This document shows positions 11,910 to 28,252 of a stretch of 34,674 bases of DNA, piece by piece. This DNA comes from Candidatus Endomicrobiellum incisitermitis (GTDB lineage: Bacteria > Elusimicrobiota > Endomicrobiia > Endomicrobiales > Endomicrobiaceae): NCBI GenBank assembly GCA_031275795.1, contig JAISOG010000012.1, positions 1 to 34,674 on the forward strand. The letters are read 5' to 3'. A program made the position numbers and the translations under genes. The notes under the pieces were generated by a model. It had not been told where the DNA came from, did no database searches, and saw only the letters and a list, made by a program, of their open reading frames with translations. The stretch's first letter is position 1. Every line of letters starts with the position of its first letter.

Positions 11910-12731
11910 TTATACACTCCAATGCAATTTGGCCTTTAACGTCTCAAAATACGACTTACTACAATTTTTTATAAGTTTAAGAGGTTTTTTATATAAAGAA
12001 AACTTTACTTTAGTAGCATTATCAACAGTAAGATTTTCTTGACCATCAATAGAAACAATAATTTTGCCATTACTATATTTGTTTTTTGCTGTACAAAAAA
12101 TACTGTTTCTGTCAGACAAAAGCATTGACCTTTGAGTTAACGTATGAGATGAAATAGGCGTAAGAATAAAAACAGGAAGGTTTGGATAAACAATTGGACC
12201 AAAAGCTGCTAAAGAATAAGCAGTAGAACCTGTAGGGGTTGAAACTATCATACCATCGCACTTGTATTCTGCCGTAAAGTTTTTATCTATTTCTACATCC
12301 ACAGAAATAAGTTTTCCACCAGATAACGACCTAACAACAGAATCGTTAGCTGCAATTTTTTTAATCTTTTTATTTTTATATTTAAACTCAACAGCTAACA
12401 AAATTCTCTTTTCTATTTTTATGCCAACTTTAAAAATATTATTTAAAAGCTCATAAACTTCATTTGTATCTGTGTCTGTCAAAAAACCTAAAGAACCTAG
12501 ATTAATACCTTTGACTGGCACAGACAAGGGAGAAAATGTTCTTATAACTTTAAGCATAGTACCGTCTCCACCTAAAGACAAAACAAAATCCAACTTTTTA
12601 GGTTTTATAGACATGGACTCACTCACAAAAACCTTACAATCGTTTTGTTTAAGCCAAGATGAAATTTCAAGTGCAAGTTTTTTTGCATTTGCTTTAGACT
12701 TATTATAAATAACCCCAACATGATATTTCAT
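11910..12731 (-). CDS. nadK: NAD kinase
   Basis: The protein phosphorylates NAD to NADP. It contains LSLGGDGTML (GGDG at residues 54-57), NDSVVRS, and the ligand-binding CDGMIVSTPTGSTAYSLAAFGP. ATG 12731 gives MKYHVGVIYNKSK, the usual opening, and 273 residues. An ATG five codons upstream (12746) is possible but would place TATAAT inside the coding sequence. No Shine-Dalgarno is visible. A TATAAT ends six bases before ATG 12731, which would put the transcript start at or next to the start codon. The stop abuts the recN start. nadD, an earlier step of NAD synthesis, is also in the window. Confidence 0.95.
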   Translation of the reverse strand: MKYHVGVIYNKSKANAKKLALEISSWLKQNDCKVFVSESMSIKPKKLDFVLSLGGDGTMLKVIRTFSPLSVPVKGINLGSLGFLTDTDTNEVYELLNNIFKVGIKIEKRILLAVEFKYKNKKIKKIAANDSVVRSLSGGKLISVDVEIDKNFTAEYKCDGMIVSTPTGSTAYSLAAFGPIVYPNLPVFILTPISSHTLTQRSMLLSDRNSIFCTAKNKYSNGKIIVSIDGQENLTVDNATKVKFSLYKKPLKLIKNCSKSYFETLKAKLHWSV

Positions 12732-12774
12732 ATGTTTATTATACATAAAAACAAATATTTTTTATTAAATGTTT

Positions 12775-14172
12775 TTAAACAAGCAAAAAATTTAAACTTA
12801 AAACTATACTAGAAAATATAATCCTCCTTTTATTTTTAAAAGTGAAAACCAAAAATAAAAACATATAAAACAATAAAATTTCTAAAATAGCAGGCCTGTT
12901 TACCACAATAGATGAAAACTCTAAACTGCCTAAAAAAGTTGTAACGTACACAATAAAACTTACAAAAATGTTTAAAATATAAGCAAAAAACATTGCTAAA
13001 TGTTTAGATAAAAAAGTCGAAATATAAAACACAATTGCACAACCTAAAACAACACCTGTAACTGGAACAACTATTATATTTGCAAAAAAAGATACTATTG
13101 ACACTTTAGAAAAATAAAACATAAGTACAGGCATTAATGCAAGCTGAGCAGAAACTGTAACTGAAGCCACACCACAAAAAAAACTTAAAACTGAATTTTT
13201 GACACTTTTAAATAATTTAAAGATTTTATTATATAAAAAAACTATCCCCAGGGTTGCTAAATATGACATTTGAAAAGAAGCTAAAAAAAGATCCTGAGGT
13301 CTAAATATTAATATAACTAATGCTGACAAAACTATTGAATTATATATCAACGGCTCTCTGTCTAAAGCAAGTGAGATAAATATACAAGTAAGCATTATCG
13401 CAGCTCTTACTGCAGGAGGGTTAGCGCCTGTGGAAATAACATAAAAGAATATAAAAGGTATACTAATCAAAGATGCTTTATTTAAAGGAATACAAAACAA
13501 TTTTAACAAAAAAAGAATTATTACACTAACAAAACCAACATGAAGTCCACTCACAACTAAAATATGAATTACCCCTGAATCAGAAAAAACGCTTTTGATT
13601 TTTTGGTCAAGAGAAGTTTTATCTCCAATAATTAAAGATTTTAAAATAGCTGAACTAGGGTATAAAAAATAATCATCTATTTTATTAACTATATCATTTT
13701 TAAGATCAATAGCAATCTTTTTAATAATGTTTGGTTGAGATTTTATATATTCAAAAGAATAAACTCTTAAAGCAAAAAATATCTCATTTCTTTCTAAATA
13801 TTTTTGATACTCAAATAAATTAGCGTTCTTAGAACTTACTGGTCTATATAGCTTGCCTTCAACACTTATTATATCACCATAATTTATTACATATCCTGCT
13901 GGCATGCTAATAAGCACCTGTTCTTTAACTTCTATATGGTTGATAGAATTAGTCTTTAATATAAATCTTTTTGCTTTGTTTGACACATACGGTTCTGAGA
14001 CAACTTTTCCTTCTACTAAAACATTTGCGCTGTCTTTAAATAATTTAAAAATATTACTTCTACTTTGTACTGAAAAATACCCTAACCAATTTAAAACTAT
14101 AATTAACACAAAATAAACAACAAAAACTGTTATAACTGGTCTTGTAAATATAAGTTTTAAAAGATATTTCAT
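12775..14172 (-). CDS. comEC: ComEC/Rec2-family DNA uptake membrane protein, short form
   Basis: This polytopic protein has the OB-like DUF4131 region near the N-terminus (SNVLVEGKVVSEPY to YLERNEIFFALRV). The Competence domain follows, with SGVIHILVVSGLHVGF and RAAIMLTCIFISLALDR and about ten membrane segments. ComEC forms the inner-membrane channel for single-stranded DNA during transformation. At 465 residues it stops right after the last membrane segments. The C-terminal metallo-beta-lactamase-like nuclease domain of longer homologues is absent, and no remnant of it fits in the 43 bp before nadK. Short ComEC forms without this domain exist, so this need not mean loss of function. The ATG has no Shine-Dalgarno; a TATAAT lies 11 bases upstream. 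It is divergent from thiL. Confidence 0.88.
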   Translation of the reverse strand: MKYLLKLIFTRPVITVFVVYFVLIIVLNWLGYFSVQSRSNIFKLFKDSANVLVEGKVVSEPYVSNKAKRFILKTNSINHIEVKEQVLISMPAGYVINYGDIISVEGKLYRPVSSKNANLFEYQKYLERNEIFFALRVYSFEYIKSQPNIIKKIAIDLKNDIVNKIDDYFLYPSSAILKSLIIGDKTSLDQKIKSVFSDSGVIHILVVSGLHVGFVSVIILFLLKLFCIPLNKASLISIPFIFFYVISTGANPPAVRAAIMLTCIFISLALDREPLIYNSIVLSALVILIFRPQDLFLASFQMSYLATLGIVFLYNKIFKLFKSVKNSVLSFFCGVASVTVSAQLALMPVLMFYFSKVSIVSFFANIIVVPVTGVVLGCAIVFYISTFLSKHLAMFFAYILNIFVSFIVYVTTFLGSLEFSSIVVNRPAILEILLFYMFLFLVFTFKNKRRIIFSSIVLSLNFLLV

Positions 14173-14183
14173 AGGTAGTTTTT

Positions 14184-14189
14184 ATTATA
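14184..14189 (-). promoter_or_regulatory. Candidate -10 box for comEC
   Basis: The minus strand reads TATAAT here, 11 bases before the comEC ATG. No good -35 hexamer is visible at 16-18 bp. Transcription would begin about four bases before the start codon, leaving no room for a ribosome binding site. Confidence 0.5.
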
Positions 14190-14198
14190 TCAAAATTG

Positions 14199-14204
14199 TA
14201 TAAT
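14199..14204 (+). promoter_or_regulatory. Candidate -10 box for thiL
   Basis: TATAAT ends nine bases before ATG 14214. The -35 region is poor. A transcript starting about seven bases downstream would have only two or three untranslated bases. It lies 9 bp from the opposite-strand comEC -10 box. Confidence 0.5.
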
Positions 14205-14213
14205 TTTGAAATA

Positions 14214-15203
14214 ATGAAATTACAAACAATTTCTTGCCATGGTGAATTTGGACTTATAAACTTAATAAAAAAAACTTTTTCAAATATAACAAAAGATAAA
14301 AATATTATCGTTGATATAGGCGATGATTGTTTTTGTTTTAAATCTGGCAAAGACTACATTTATATAACCAAAGATATGCTAGTAGAAGATGTCCATTTTA
14401 AAACAAGCTGGACAAGTCCATACGAGCTAGGCAAAAAGGCAATAGAAGTAAATATAAGCGATTTAGCTGCCATGGGAAATGTCATTGCAAAATACATCTT
14501 TATTGGTTTGGGTGCACCCGCTAACACGTCTGAAAATTTTGTTAAAAACTTGATAAAAGGTATACAACAAGCTTGTAACAAATATAATATTGCTCTTTCT
14601 GGTGGAGATACAGTAAAAGCAGATAAAATTATAATATCTGTAACAGCTATAGGAATAAGTAAAAATAAACCCATAACAAGAACCGGAGCACAAATCGGTG
14701 ATCTAATAGGAGTAACAAACAGTTTTGGTGATTCTGGTGCAGGACTTTATTTACTTAACAAATATGGAATAAAGCACAAATATACAAAACATGAACGTGC
14801 TTTAATAAAAGCGCAAAATAGTCCCATAGCAAGGCTTAAGGAAGCTTGTAAAGTGTCTAAGTACTTAACTTCACTAATAGATGCTTCAGATGGACTATTT
14901 GTTTCATTAAATTTGCTTATTCAAGATTTTTCTAAAGGCGCAAACATAAATATAGAGCAAATACCTATTTCAAAAAACTTAAAAGCAGTGTTCAACAACA
15001 ACCAACAAATTTTAAAGTTTGCTTTGTTTGGAGCAGAAGATTACCAGTTAGTATTTACTGTGCCAAAATTAAAAGCAAAAATTGTAAAAAAATTAGTTCC
15101 TAGTATTACGTATATAGGTAAAATTACTGCTGGTACAAAGGTAAAATATTTTTATAATGGTAAAAAACAAAAACTCAAATATTGCGGCTTTAAACACTTT
15201 TAA
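14214..15203 (+). CDS. thiL: Thiamine-monophosphate kinase
   Basis: ThiL phosphorylates thiamine monophosphate to thiamine diphosphate. The PurM-like fold is recognisable from GEFGLINLI, VDIGDDCF, ITKDMLVEDVHFK, SDLAAMG, ALSGGDTVKA and SLIDASDGL. I chose ATG 14214 (329 residues). A TTG six codons upstream overlaps the TATAAT promoter element and is unlikely. There is no Shine-Dalgarno. The 3' end overlaps tsaE by 47 bp, a large overlap that suggests translational coupling. No THI-box riboswitch is visible, and the upstream space (41 bp) is too short for one. Confidence 0.94.
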   Translation: MKLQTISCHGEFGLINLIKKTFSNITKDKNIIVDIGDDCFCFKSGKDYIYITKDMLVEDVHFKTSWTSPYELGKKAIEVNISDLAAMGNVIAKYIFIGLGAPANTSENFVKNLIKGIQQACNKYNIALSGGDTVKADKIIISVTAIGISKNKPITRTGAQIGDLIGVTNSFGDSGAGLYLLNKYGIKHKYTKHERALIKAQNSPIARLKEACKVSKYLTSLIDASDGLFVSLNLLIQDFSKGANINIEQIPISKNLKAVFNNNQQILKFALFGAEDYQLVFTVPKLKAKIVKKLVPSITYIGKITAGTKVKYFYNGKKQKLKYCGFKHF

Positions 15204-23527: not shown

Positions 23528-26029
23528 TTAAATTTGCCATTCTTTAATTTTTTCAGAATATATTTCAAGCAATCCTAACGTTGTCGTTTTCTCTTTTGCT
23601 TCTGCCCAAAGATGAAACAGGGCCTCATTAGTATCTGGCACCAAAAGTACCCAACCGTTATTTGTATATACTTTAACGCCATCAACAAGCTCGTGCTTTT
23701 TATCTTTAACTTCTTCTAAAGCTTTACGCATTGTCTGCCCTTTTTTATCCCAAGAGCACGGGACTGTTCTATGTAACACTTCAAAATATGGAATCTCCTT
23801 GCTTATATTACTAAGAGATAAATTTTCTTGCGACATCATTTCCATTATTTTGCCTATAGCATACATTGCATCAAAAGCATTTTGAAATTCAGGAAATATA
23901 AAACCACCCATACTGTCACATATTAAAACAACTTCTGAATTTTTCTCATAAGTCATTATATTTCTTGAACTTGTTGCAGTCCTTTTAACTTTTATACCAA
24001 ACTGTTTAGCAAGCTCATCTATTGTTGAAGTTGCATTTATAGGAACAGCAATTGCAACATTTTTACCTTTATTAATTCTCATTACAAGATAAGACACTAC
24101 AAGCATTGCAACATCGTCATGTAAAATAGTGCCTCTTTCATCTACCAAAAACACTTTTTCAGAACCAGAATCTATCAAAAAACCAGCATTTGCTTTTAAA
24201 GTTGTAACAATATCTGAAAGCTGGTTTAAAGAATTTGCAAATTCCTCATAAGATTTAGTATTTTTTGAAGAATTAATAAACGCATTCAACGCAACAACAT
24301 TCACGTCCAAGTCACCCAAAATAGCTGGAAATATCATAGAAGAAGAAGAATGAGCATAATCTATAACAATTTTATATTTAGACTTTTTTATAACTTCTTC
24401 ATTTATAGCATTTAAATAACCTGTTTTATAATAATCTAAAGCTCTTGGAGGGACTGTTATTTTTCCAATAGAGTCCATGGTTGCACGTCTAAAATCTTCT
24501 CTAAAAAATAACTGTTCTATAGCCTTTTCTTGACTTATTGAAATATCAGCACCTTTATTGTTAAAAAACTTTATATCTACAGACCTTCCATCACGAGGAG
24601 ATTGTCTTATATATATTCCACCAGATTCACCCTCATTGCCAATTTCATACCTTACAACTGGTATTGGTAGCCCTCTTAAATCGCCAACTTCTATACCTGC
24701 AGAAAGTAATCCAGAAATAATACCTCTTTCTATCATCCTAGATGCAGGATGTTCATCTCGTGAAACAATAATATATGAACTTTCTCCTATATAAGCTCCA
24801 TATGCAGAGCCTATTTTTGCAGCAAATTCTGGAGTAATCTCTACATTGCCTAACCCACTTATACCACAAGCATTAAATAAAGCTTTATTCCATCTTTCAC
24901 CCCAAACCAAACTACTTGAAAGTATTGCCCCTGCACCTATAACTTTATGAGGCCAAATTCTTAAATTTGTCCTAACAACCGCATCATTACCTATTATACA
25001 TTCATCTGCAACTATCGTCCCAACCTGAACTACAACTCTATCGCCTATTTTTGTAGAAGTTCCTATAACATTTTCTTTAATTCTTGAGTCTTGCCCAATT
25101 GTAACGTTGTTCCACAACACAGAACCTAAAATTTCTGAACCCTGCGCAATTTTAGTATTATCACCTATAACAGAACGAGATAAAACTACATTATCTGCAA
25201 TAGTAACATTATGTCCTAAAATTACTTGCCCATCTACTTCAACATTTTTGCCCATGGACACATTTTTGCCGACTAATATCTCATTTTGTCCAACTTTTAC
25301 TTTCTTACAATCTATATCAACTTTAACTTTGTCATCTAATATATCGTAATGAACAAATCTATACTCATCGCTATTGCCAATATCTTTCCAATAGCCATCA
25401 GCAATGTATCCATACAAAGCCTTATTTTCCTTTAAAAATGCTGGAAGCAAGTCTTTAGAAAAATCAAAAGACATATCTGGAACATAATTAAACACTTCCG
25501 GCTCTAAAATATAAATCCCAGTGTTTACTGTATCTGAAAAAACTTCACCCCAGGAAGGTTTCTCTAAAAACCTTTCAATTCTACCATCTTTAGAAGTTAT
25601 TACTACCCCAAATTGTAAAGGATTATTCACTCTTGTAAGGACTATTGTAACAAGAGCTTTTTTGCTTTTATGAAAATCTACAGCCTTTTTTAAATCAAAG
25701 TCTGTTAAAATATCTCCAGATATTACCAAAAAAGTATCTTTTATGTTTTGGCTTGCAAACTTAACACTACCTGCTGTACCAAGATCAGATTCTGGTCTTA
25801 TATACTTTATGTTTACTCCAAAATCTTTACCATATTCAAAATAATTTTTAATAGTTTCTGGCTGATAATATAACATCATTGTTAAATCTAAAAAATCGTG
25901 CTTTTTTAAAAGGTTGACTATATGGCAAAGCATAGGTTTGTTTGCTACTGGAGCCATAGGTTTTGGCAAACAACATGTGATAGGTCTTAATCTTGTACCA
26001 AAGCCACCGGCCATAATAACAGCTTGCAT
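23528..26029 (-). CDS. Sugar nucleotidyltransferase fused to a degenerate phosphohexomutase
   Basis: The first domain (about residues 1-230) is a sugar-1-phosphate nucleotidyltransferase with GGFGTRLRP (8-16), CLPKPM and GLGTAGSVKFA-like ligand residues. A left-handed beta-helix of hexapeptide repeats follows (about 250-365: VGKNVSMGKNVEVDGQVI and onward). The last 460 residues look like a phosphohexomutase. However, the ASHNP phosphoserine loop is replaced by IRQSPRDGRS and the DGDADR metal loop by DSGSEKVFLVDERG, so it should not be an active mutase. Such fusions are often annotated as mannose-1-phosphate guanylyltransferase; the base and sugar are unproven. I chose ATG 26029 with AGGAGG nine bases upstream (833 residues). 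It heads the operon ending in hisS. Confidence 0.88.
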   Translation of the reverse strand: MQAVIMAGGFGTRLRPITCCLPKPMAPVANKPMLCHIVNLLKKHDFLDLTMMLYYQPETIKNYFEYGKDFGVNIKYIRPESDLGTAGSVKFASQNIKDTFLVISGDILTDFDLKKAVDFHKSKKALVTIVLTRVNNPLQFGVVITSKDGRIERFLEKPSWGEVFSDTVNTGIYILEPEVFNYVPDMSFDFSKDLLPAFLKENKALYGYIADGYWKDIGNSDEYRFVHYDILDDKVKVDIDCKKVKVGQNEILVGKNVSMGKNVEVDGQVILGHNVTIADNVVLSRSVIGDNTKIAQGSEILGSVLWNNVTIGQDSRIKENVIGTSTKIGDRVVVQVGTIVADECIIGNDAVVRTNLRIWPHKVIGAGAILSSSLVWGERWNKALFNACGISGLGNVEITPEFAAKIGSAYGAYIGESSYIIVSRDEHPASRMIERGIISGLLSAGIEVGDLRGLPIPVVRYEIGNEGESGGIYIRQSPRDGRSVDIKFFNNKGADISISQEKAIEQLFFREDFRRATMDSIGKITVPPRALDYYKTGYLNAINEEVIKKSKYKIVIDYAHSSSSMIFPAILGDLDVNVVALNAFINSSKNTKSYEEFANSLNQLSDIVTTLKANAGFLIDSGSEKVFLVDERGTILHDDVAMLVVSYLVMRINKGKNVAIAVPINATSTIDELAKQFGIKVKRTATSSRNIMTYEKNSEVVLICDSMGGFIFPEFQNAFDAMYAIGKIMEMMSQENLSLSNISKEIPYFEVLHRTVPCSWDKKGQTMRKALEEVKDKKHELVDGVKVYTNNGWVLLVPDTNEALFHLWAEAKEKTTTLGLLEIYSEKIKEWQI

Positions 26030-26074
26030 TGAGAAGTACCTCCTGGGAAAGAGTACAGGACTTGACAAAGGAGG

Positions 26075-26103
26075 ATTTTACTAAATTTGACACCTGAAAT
26101 CAA
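26075..26103 (-). promoter_or_regulatory. Promoter for the nucleotidyltransferase-hisS operon
   Basis: On the minus strand TTGATT (26098-26103) and TAAAAT (26075-26080) are 17 bp apart. The expected start near 26068 gives a leader of about 39 nt with AGGAGG before ATG 26029. The 17-bp spacer contains the -35 box of the opposite pbp promoter. Confidence 0.65.
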
Positions 26104-26116
26104 AAATGGGTATAAT
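26087..26116 (+). promoter_or_regulatory. Consensus sigma-70 promoter for the class A PBP gene
   Basis: TTGACA (26087-26092) and TATAAT (26111-26116) match consensus exactly, 18 bp apart. The predicted start near 26123 is only about three bases before ATG 26126, so the mRNA would be essentially leaderless. No Shine-Dalgarno is present. The -35 box sits inside the spacer of the divergent promoter. Confidence 0.82.
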
Positions 26117-26125
26117 CTCTCAAAT

Positions 26126-28252
26126 ATGAAACAAAGTGAGACTAAAACTACCTCTTATTTTAAATTTTTTATAGTTGTAATTATCGTCGCATTATTTATA
26201 TTAGTTTTAGGTAAAATAACTACAAATTTTATAGATAATCTTCCATCAATACAACAACTTGGCAATTATACCCCAAACTTATCTACAAAGGTTTATGATA
26301 AAGACAACAATTTAATAGCAGAACTATTTACAGAAAGAAGGGTCCTAATACCAATAAATGACATACCTTTAAATTTGCAAAATGCTTTCATAGCTATAGA
26401 AGATAACGACTTTTTTAAACATTGGGGAATTTCTATAAAAAGTATTTTTAGAGCTTTTTGTAAAATATTACTAAAAGGTAAAGTTTCAGAAGGTGGTTCC
26501 ACAATTACTCAACAACTTGCAAAAACCATATTTTTAACTAGAGACAAAACCTTAATAAGAAAAATAAAAGAAGCGCTTTTAACATTATCCCTTGAAAAAA
26601 ATTATTCTAAAAAAGAAATATTGCAGTTTTACATAAACCAAATATATTTTGGTAGTGGCTCACACGGAGTAGAGGTAGCTGCAGAAAAATATTTTAATAA
26701 AAATATAAAAGATTTAAACCTTGCAGAATGCGCAATGCTTGCAGCAATTCCAAAATCTCCAAATTACTATAACCCATTTAAAAATGCAAAAGCTGCTTTA
26801 GCAAGAAGAAACATCGTTCTTTCTAAAATGTATGAGTTAGGCTATATCAGCAAAGAAGAACAAGAACAAGCTTCAAAGGAACCACTTCCATCTAAAGAAA
26901 CTGTAAACATAAAAGAAGAAAAAGGACATTATTTTATGGAGTTTTTAAAAATAATGTTAGAACCAAAATATGGAATAGATATTTTGTTTAACTCAGGAAT
27001 TTCTATATATACAACTCTTGATATACAAGCACAAATTTCTGCAGAAAAAGCTATTGAACAAGCTTTAACAAAATTTGACGAAGAGAAAGTTAAAGTTTTC
27101 AAAAAAGAAAACAAAGAACTAGTAAAAATACAAGGAGCATTAATAGCAGTTGACCCCAAAAATGGTGCAATAAGAGCCATGGTTGGAGGACGCAATTTTA
27201 AAGAATCTCAATTTAACAGAGCAATCCAAGCAAAAAGACAAGCTGGATCAGCATTTAAACCTTTTGTATATCTTACAGCAATAGAGGAAGGATTTACACC
27301 TGCAACAATACTTGAAGATGCACCTTTAGTCTTTGTTTATAAAAACAATGCTTGGGACTTAGTTTCAAGAGATATAACTGCTCTTGAAACAGTCGCTGAA
27401 ATAGTACCTGAAGACGACTTAATAAACACAAATAAGGTTTGGGTACCTACAAACTATGGCAAAAAATATAGAGGAAAAGTTACATTAAGAACAGCTCTTG
27501 CTTTATCTATTAACACTTGTGCAGTAGAACTTATAATGAAAGTAACACCAATAAAAGTTATACAATCAACAAGAAATTTAGGAATAACAACTCCATTATC
27601 AAACTCTCTCTCACTGGCTTTAGGTTCAAGCGATGTAACATTACAAGAAATGGTAAGCGCTTTTGCAGTTTTTGCATCAGGCGGAATTAAAACTACACCT
27701 TACATTATAGTAAAAATTACAGATAAAGACGGAAAAATTTTAGAAGAAAATATACCTCAACAAAAGGAAGTTCTTTCCTCGCAAACTTGCTTTGTTTTAA
27801 CCAACATGCTTAAAGCAGTAATAGAAAAAGGTAGTGGTTGGCAAGCAAAAATGTTAGGAAGACCGTGTGCAGGAAAAACTGGGACTACAAATGGTCCCAG
27901 CGATGCATGGTTTATAGGATATACTCCTCAACTTGTTGCAGGCGTGTGGATAGGTTATGACGACCGTTCAATAACATTAGGGGACAGAGTTACAGGTGGT
28001 GTAATAGCTTGTCCTATATGGACAAATTTTATGAAAGGCGCACTAGAAGGACAACCTATTTTAGATTTTGCAGAACCAGCAGACATCGATTGGGCATTAA
28101 TTGACCCTTCAACAGGCCTTCTAGCTTTAAGCAAAACAGAGGGTGCATTTATTGAAGCATTTAAAAAAGGGACTGCTCCTACACAATATTTTAATATAAG
28201 TTCTTCAGACATAAGAAAACAAGATTTAGATATAGAAATAGAAGGTTTTTAA
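26126..28252 (+). CDS. Class A penicillin-binding protein (PBP1A type)
   Basis: A membrane anchor is at residues 12-30. The glycosyltransferase domain has IEDNDFFKHWG (catalytic E92), EGGSTITQQLAKTIFL and QIYFGSGSHGVEVAAEKYF. The transpeptidase domain has the nucleophile motif SAFK (375-378), SIN (461-463) and KTGT (584-587). All catalytic motifs are intact, so it should polymerise and cross-link peptidoglycan. ATG 26126 is chosen because the in-frame TTG upstream (26087) lies in the -35 box and translation from it would run through the promoter. The 708 residues are typical. It converges with the RNase G gene with two bases between stops and no obvious terminator. Confidence 0.95.
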   Translation: MKQSETKTTSYFKFFIVVIIVALFILVLGKITTNFIDNLPSIQQLGNYTPNLSTKVYDKDNNLIAELFTERRVLIPINDIPLNLQNAFIAIEDNDFFKHWGISIKSIFRAFCKILLKGKVSEGGSTITQQLAKTIFLTRDKTLIRKIKEALLTLSLEKNYSKKEILQFYINQIYFGSGSHGVEVAAEKYFNKNIKDLNLAECAMLAAIPKSPNYYNPFKNAKAALARRNIVLSKMYELGYISKEEQEQASKEPLPSKETVNIKEEKGHYFMEFLKIMLEPKYGIDILFNSGISIYTTLDIQAQISAEKAIEQALTKFDEEKVKVFKKENKELVKIQGALIAVDPKNGAIRAMVGGRNFKESQFNRAIQAKRQAGSAFKPFVYLTAIEEGFTPATILEDAPLVFVYKNNAWDLVSRDITALETVAEIVPEDDLINTNKVWVPTNYGKKYRGKVTLRTALALSINTCAVELIMKVTPIKVIQSTRNLGITTPLSNSLSLALGSSDVTLQEMVSAFAVFASGGIKTTPYIIVKITDKDGKILEENIPQQKEVLSSQTCFVLTNMLKAVIEKGSGWQAKMLGRPCAGKTGTTNGPSDAWFIGYTPQLVAGVWIGYDDRSITLGDRVTGGVIACPIWTNFMKGALEGQPILDFAEPADIDWALIDPSTGLLALSKTEGAFIEAFKKGTAPTQYFNISSSDIRKQDLDIEIEGF

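Follow-up and report, generated by a model that had tools for sequence, protein, structure and literature searches.

The mrcA locus of Candidatus Endomicrobiellum incisitermitis (Elusimicrobiota, Endomicrobiaceae), a symbiont of the termite gut, raises the question of whether a promoter with perfect consensus hexamers, placed nine bases before a start codon, gives rise to an mRNA with almost no 5′ leader, and of how widely such initiation is used in the genome. The locus is part of a contig of 34,674 nucleotides that was analyzed as a whole and is referred to here as the window. A sequence-only reading of this DNA had proposed that mrcA, thiL, comEC, and nadK are expressed from nearly leaderless transcripts and that the genome regularly initiates translation in this way; the first proposal gained support from the comparison with relatives, while the second was not supported by the genome-wide counts. 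The favored reading, to which a probability of about 0.82 is assigned, is that mrcA is transcribed from its perfect promoter into a near-leaderless mRNA and that this would be a property shared by mrcA, thiL, comEC, nadK, and dprA amid genes that are mostly Shine-Dalgarno (SD)-led.

Promoter and start codon of mrcA

The mrcA gene (26126–28252, forward strand, ATG start, stop codon included) encodes a class A PBP of the PBP1A-like type with Pfam Transgly and Transpeptidase domains, and its PBP1A matches at 94–96% identity come from Candidatus Endomicrobiellum and Endomicrobium sp. MAGs. It is preceded on the same strand by a −35 hexamer, TTGACA (26087–26092), and a −10 hexamer, TATAAT (26111–26116), both exact and both conserved in congeners, which together match the consensus at 12 of 12 positions and are separated by a spacer of 18 nt (26093–26110), within the 16–18 nt of the sigma-70 type. 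Nine nucleotides, CTCTCAAAT, lie between the −10 hexamer and the ATG at 26126–26128. This is the only exact TTGACA-N15..19-TATAAT site in the window, where shuffled sequences give an expectation of 0.05, and one of 13 exact consensus promoters (N16..19) in the whole genome (1,237,699 bases in 49 contigs), which holds three copies of the reversed pattern. The hexamers thus stand where they had been reported, and the claim that no ribosome binding site precedes the ATG also proved correct, as no SD was found upstream of 26126 at a proper distance.

Bacterial transcription start sites mostly lie 6–9 nt after the −10 hexamer. Given that the −10 to ATG spacing is 9 nt at mrcA, mostly 9 nt at thiL and dprA, and 6–7 nt at nadK, the predicted leaders are about 0–4 nt long, and for mrcA the predicted start zone, placed by its distance from the −10 hexamer, is 26122–26126 on the forward strand. 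In the proposed mechanism, a housekeeping (sigma-70 type) promoter would start transcription at about these positions and leave a leader of only 0–4 nt; because the stretch from a start site set by the −10 hexamer to the ATG is too short, no SD would fit, and ribosomes would begin at the 5′-proximal AUG at 26126 by a leaderless route, with 70S ribosomes, or 30S subunits carrying initiator tRNA, engaging that AUG. Other genes of the lineage would mostly initiate through an SD. We infer both the transcription start site and the leaderless translation of mrcA from this arrangement, and a weaker promoter farther upstream may also serve the gene. Folding of the first 60 nt of the mrcA RNA revealed nothing remarkable (z −0.25).

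A start codon farther downstream with an SD had been named as evidence against the model. No in-frame start codon occurs from 26129 up to a TTG at 26375, so that a later start would cost the protein its membrane segment (the segment being judged by eye). On the opposite strand, the divergent neighbor of mrcA (23528–26068) is a single ORF in which a nucleotidyltransferase domain is fused to hexapeptide-repeat and phosphomannomutase domains, and it has an SD-like GGAGG before an ATG at 26029.

Conservation of the layout in mrcA and other genes

The mrcA layout was scored in relatives as a promoter of at least 9/12 (at least 10 outside the genus) whose −10 hexamer ends 5–12 nt before an in-frame ATG. 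Taking the best promoter score among several candidate starts, the layout is present in 22 of 33 congeneric genomes at a threshold of at least 9/12 and in 20 of 33 at a threshold of at least 10. In 19 of the 33, the two hexamers are both perfect when any distance of up to 60 nt is allowed, and an SD score of at least 5 was found in a single congener (G007), for which the ATG at +1 had been taken as the start. The comparison left out two genomes with weak matches only (G011, G015) and one (G041) whose best match (E 2.3e-38) was taken as a paralog; G038 was represented by locus L071, presumably the same contig.

The eleven congeners that fail the rule do so in several ways. The −10 hexamer lies 14, 15, and 18 nt from the ATG in G006, G032, and G033, the first two being only slightly beyond the rule, and 37 nt away in G021, while G029 has a perfect promoter, but at 61 nt. 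The ATG is found at +1 in G002 and in G007, the latter with a second ATG at +7; G008 and G017 are without such a promoter; and G018 and G028 have a near ATG that does not share the frame of the ORF. A promoter-near ATG that is out of frame was seen in loci L040 (G028), L065, L073, and L022 (G018), with A-rich runs nearby in L040 and L065, and may reflect decay, assembly error, or slippage.

Outside the genus, the layout at a score of at least 10 was found in six of 23 Elusimicrobiota genomes (G037, G038, G044, G047, G048, G054), and 17 fail the rule. Among other genomes outside the genus, perfect hexamers occur at 16 (G036), 27 (G040), 45 (G039), and 50 nt (G057), distances that leave space for an mrcA leader, and in G055 and G058 TATAAT lies 6 nt away and the −35 hexamer is poor (score 8). 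Inspection by eye of the mrcA orthologs (L014–L080) distinguished two promoter types, one with an 18-nt spacer preceded by TACTAAATTTGACAC and one with a 17-nt spacer and a TTTTAAAATATAAT end, and the spacer letters of both are also conserved.

Three further genes of the window have a −10 hexamer close to the start codon. The start region of thiL (14199–14216, forward strand) has TATAAT at 14199–14204 and, after 9 nt as in mrcA, an ATG at 14214; that of comEC (14170–14189, reverse strand) has TATAAT at 14189–14184, 11 nt before an ATG at 14172; and that of nadK (12729–12743, reverse strand) has TATAAT at 12743–12738, 6 nt before an ATG at 12731. The earlier descriptions of thiL and nadK were accurate in these positions. 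Pfam backs the assignments of comEC and nadK and finds AIRS domains in thiL, while the names dprA, rsmA, ispG, groES, rpoB, and rpmH used below are presumptive, assigned from the protein letters.

For thiL, nadK, dprA, groES, and rsmA, loci among the matches listed (at most 30 per gene) were scored for a −10-like hexamer, defined as a match to TATAAT of at least five of six positions, ending 4–12 nt before the start; thiL, nadK, and groES each had a single unplaced locus, which stands outside the 29 counted. Among the matches listed, such a hexamer was kept in 24 of 29 congeneric loci of thiL (SD score of at least 5 in none) and in 20 of 29 of nadK (SD in one). The dprA gene, which lies outside the window, has it in 19 of the 20 loci scored among the 29 matches listed (SD in none), the other nine being fragments or broken copies. 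For comEC, sought in the 30 thiL loci, 19 loci gave a match; a homologous ATG was found in 14 of these, all with TATAAT 10–11 nt upstream (distances by eye), and the start was not placed in the other five (L163, L167, L170, L182, L183). The layout is thus conserved in the genus for thiL, comEC, and nadK, as it is for mrcA, and near-leaderless expression appears probable for each of them, as had been proposed.

The control genes behave differently. A near −10-like hexamer was found in none of 29 groES loci among the matches listed, 27 of which have an SD, and rpoB showed the layout in 2 of 19 loci, its TATAAT lying mostly 48–58 nt away. Two candidates picked from a scan of the organism's own genome were rejected, as the layout is not conserved in either: rsmA (10 of 30 loci among the matches listed) and ispG (10 of 30 loci, scattered). 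These values give the background rate of matches of at least five of six positions in AT-rich DNA. An exact TATAAT at 4–12 nt discriminates better than such matches, occurring in 41 of 58 loci of thiL and nadK (among the matches listed) vs. 3 of 108 in a pool of groES, rpoB, ispG, and rsmA; this pool joins two chosen controls with two failed candidates, dprA and mrcA are outside the 41 of 58, and the Fisher test on it is descriptive only.

Several features of individual loci were noted alongside these counts. The comEC and thiL genes are divergent, and their facing TATAAT boxes (window 14184–14204) are the arms of an inverted repeat, which reads ATTATATC..GATATAAT in relatives (L158–L185), is retained in many congeners, and appears to be a two-way promoter shared by two near-leaderless genes. 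In nadK of G014 (L151), a GGAGG shortly 5′ of the ATG stands in place of the nearby −10 box, so that this gene appears to have exchanged leaderless for SD initiation. The dprA matches in G018, G007, G027, G012, G001, G061, and G014 (L208–L216) are fragmentary and interrupted by internal stops, which gives the impression of a decaying gene in those congeners.

Alternative readings

A more ambitious interpretation holds that the Endomicrobiaceae keep mrcA, comEC, dprA, thiL, and nadK leaderless genus-wide so that their translation is separable from that of SD-led genes, the perfect mrcA promoter offsetting weak leaderless initiation. Separate control could then act through initiation-factor levels or altered ribosomes, for example during life inside protists, on a set with functions in the cell wall (mrcA), DNA uptake (comEC, dprA), and cofactors (thiL, nadK). 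This interpretation is speculative and is considered unlikely.

Regular use of leaderless initiation, by a large share of the genes of this genome, is rated improbable. This reading draws on the count made with the window included, in which a promoter scoring at least 10 with its −10 hexamer at 5–11 nt precedes 10 of 287 genes, all SD-less, vs. 1, 1, 3, 4, and 5 SD-less promoters in the next five bins, and several of these genes are conserved. However, the excess vanishes with the window left out: such a promoter at 5–11 nt then precedes 7 of 272 ORFs, and the next seven 7-nt bins hold 2, 2, 4, 8, 7, 6, and 5, so that there is no bulk excess of promoters at the leaderless position outside the window. 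In a 400-kb sample of the relative G062, 2 of 252 genes have a promoter at this position (other bins 0–9), and none of the 99 ortholog pairs whose starts aligned, drawn from a 400-kb sample of one relative, has the layout in both members. The pattern TATAAT-N6..10-ATG occurs 265 times in the whole genome vs. 252 for N16..20, which is no excess; the same count shows an excess in a few other genomes (184 vs. 147 in G054, 76 vs. 39 in G047).

The general features of initiation also argue against a regular leaderless mode. Upstream of the first ATGs of 299 ORFs, SD 4-mers peak at 5–10 nt and no bulk −10 peak was found; the 3′ tail of the 16S rRNA carries CCTCCT, an intact anti-SD; and the candidates ispG and rsmA are not conserved in layout. 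When strong promoters were surveyed against start codons, a check that the sequence-only reading had itself suggested, mrcA was the sole clear leaderless case among the genome's 13 exact promoters, with L008 (ATG at +12) a possible second. Several of these promoters precede 16S rRNA, tRNAs, or genes that we take to be groES, rpmH, and rpoB. Together, the lack of a bulk excess, the 0 of 99 pairs, and the counts of 265 vs. 252 indicate that leaderless genes are probably a small set here, and the several candidates within the window are attributed to chance or local history.

A competing start codon for mrcA, absent from the sequence-only reading, also had to be weighed; its use would extend the protein by 13 codons. 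The motif AAAGGAGG (26067–26074) lies 12 nt 5′ of a TTG (26087–26089) that sits within the −35 box in frame with mrcA, the whole element spanning 26067–26089 on the forward strand, and mrcA might be translated from this TTG on a transcript from a promoter farther upstream, in which case TTGACA and TATAAT would be coding letters. The frame from the TTG is open into mrcA behind a strong SD, and it is likewise open to the ATG in L044–L049, L055, L056, L058, L059, L064, and L070. However, the SD letters before the TTG are altered in the close relatives L044, L045, and L046, and the reading frame between the −35 hexamer and the ATG is interrupted or changed in L050–L054, L057, L060, L061, L063, L074, and others, which retain the promoter. 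The −35 and −10 hexamers are kept as promoter letters, and a transcript starting from them would exclude the TTG. Use of TTG 26087 is accordingly rated very improbable, and we judge that it does not serve as the mrcA start. The point affects annotation, as a gene finder could pick TTG 26087 for mrcA.

That the promoter lies near the mrcA ATG by chance, the true transcript starting elsewhere, is hardly credible: AT-rich DNA does produce frequent −10-like hexamers (at least five of six positions at 4–12 nt in 10 of 30 ispG and 10 of 30 rsmA loci, in a layout that is not conserved), but an exact promoter is expected 0.05 times in the window and the perfect hexamers of mrcA persist in 19 of 33 congeners, before proteins of down to ∼60–70% identity and beside differing upstream neighbors (by eye).

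Relation to known leaderless genes

Near-leaderless expression of a small conserved gene set is the reading of the comparative sequence evidence that is well supported, and the mechanism it would require is already known. Zheng et al. (2011; PMC3160421) described leaderless genes of bacteria in which a TA-like −10 signal precedes the start by ∼10 bp. The genes considered here resemble these in having a −10 box about 10 bp upstream, without an SD, and in being a minority beside SD-led genes. They differ in that the groups given with leaderless genes, in the portions of that paper available, do not include Elusimicrobia, and in that the layout here concerns just a few of the organism's genes, compared gene by gene. 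In Deinococcus-Thermus, the −10 region adjoins ORFs, whereas groES is described as retaining a promoter and RBS of the classical kind (Zhong et al., 2025; PMC12340547), an arrangement shared with the present genes down to the groES exception, which matches the groES control. According to the sections of the same paper that were available, nearly one third of the genes of D. radiodurans are affected, with a spacing of ∼6–7 bp. Unlike in Deinococcus, few genes have the layout here, the spacing is mostly 9 nt (mrcA, thiL, dprA) with 6–7 nt in nadK, and mrcA has a full −35 hexamer.

A leaderless translation route has been described, and Endomicrobia are listed among the groups with an anti-SD, in the accessible part of one further source (PMC10783764). 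A full-text literature search found no report of leaderless genes in Elusimicrobiota, the accessible part of that source included, and nothing was found in the literature on transcription start sites under Endomicrobi- or on leaderless genes in Termite group 1. Expression of comEC has been reported in Endomicrobium, as far as the portion of the source available goes (PMC8809381), which makes the mapping of transcript starts feasible. The mechanism, then, is an established one, whereas the gene set and the lineage, which has been little studied, are new.

For the Elusimicrobiota, these genes provide a conserved and testable set of leaderless candidates, and their comparison suggests that certain genes can keep their promoter-to-start spacing genus-wide in a background of genes that mostly look SD-led.
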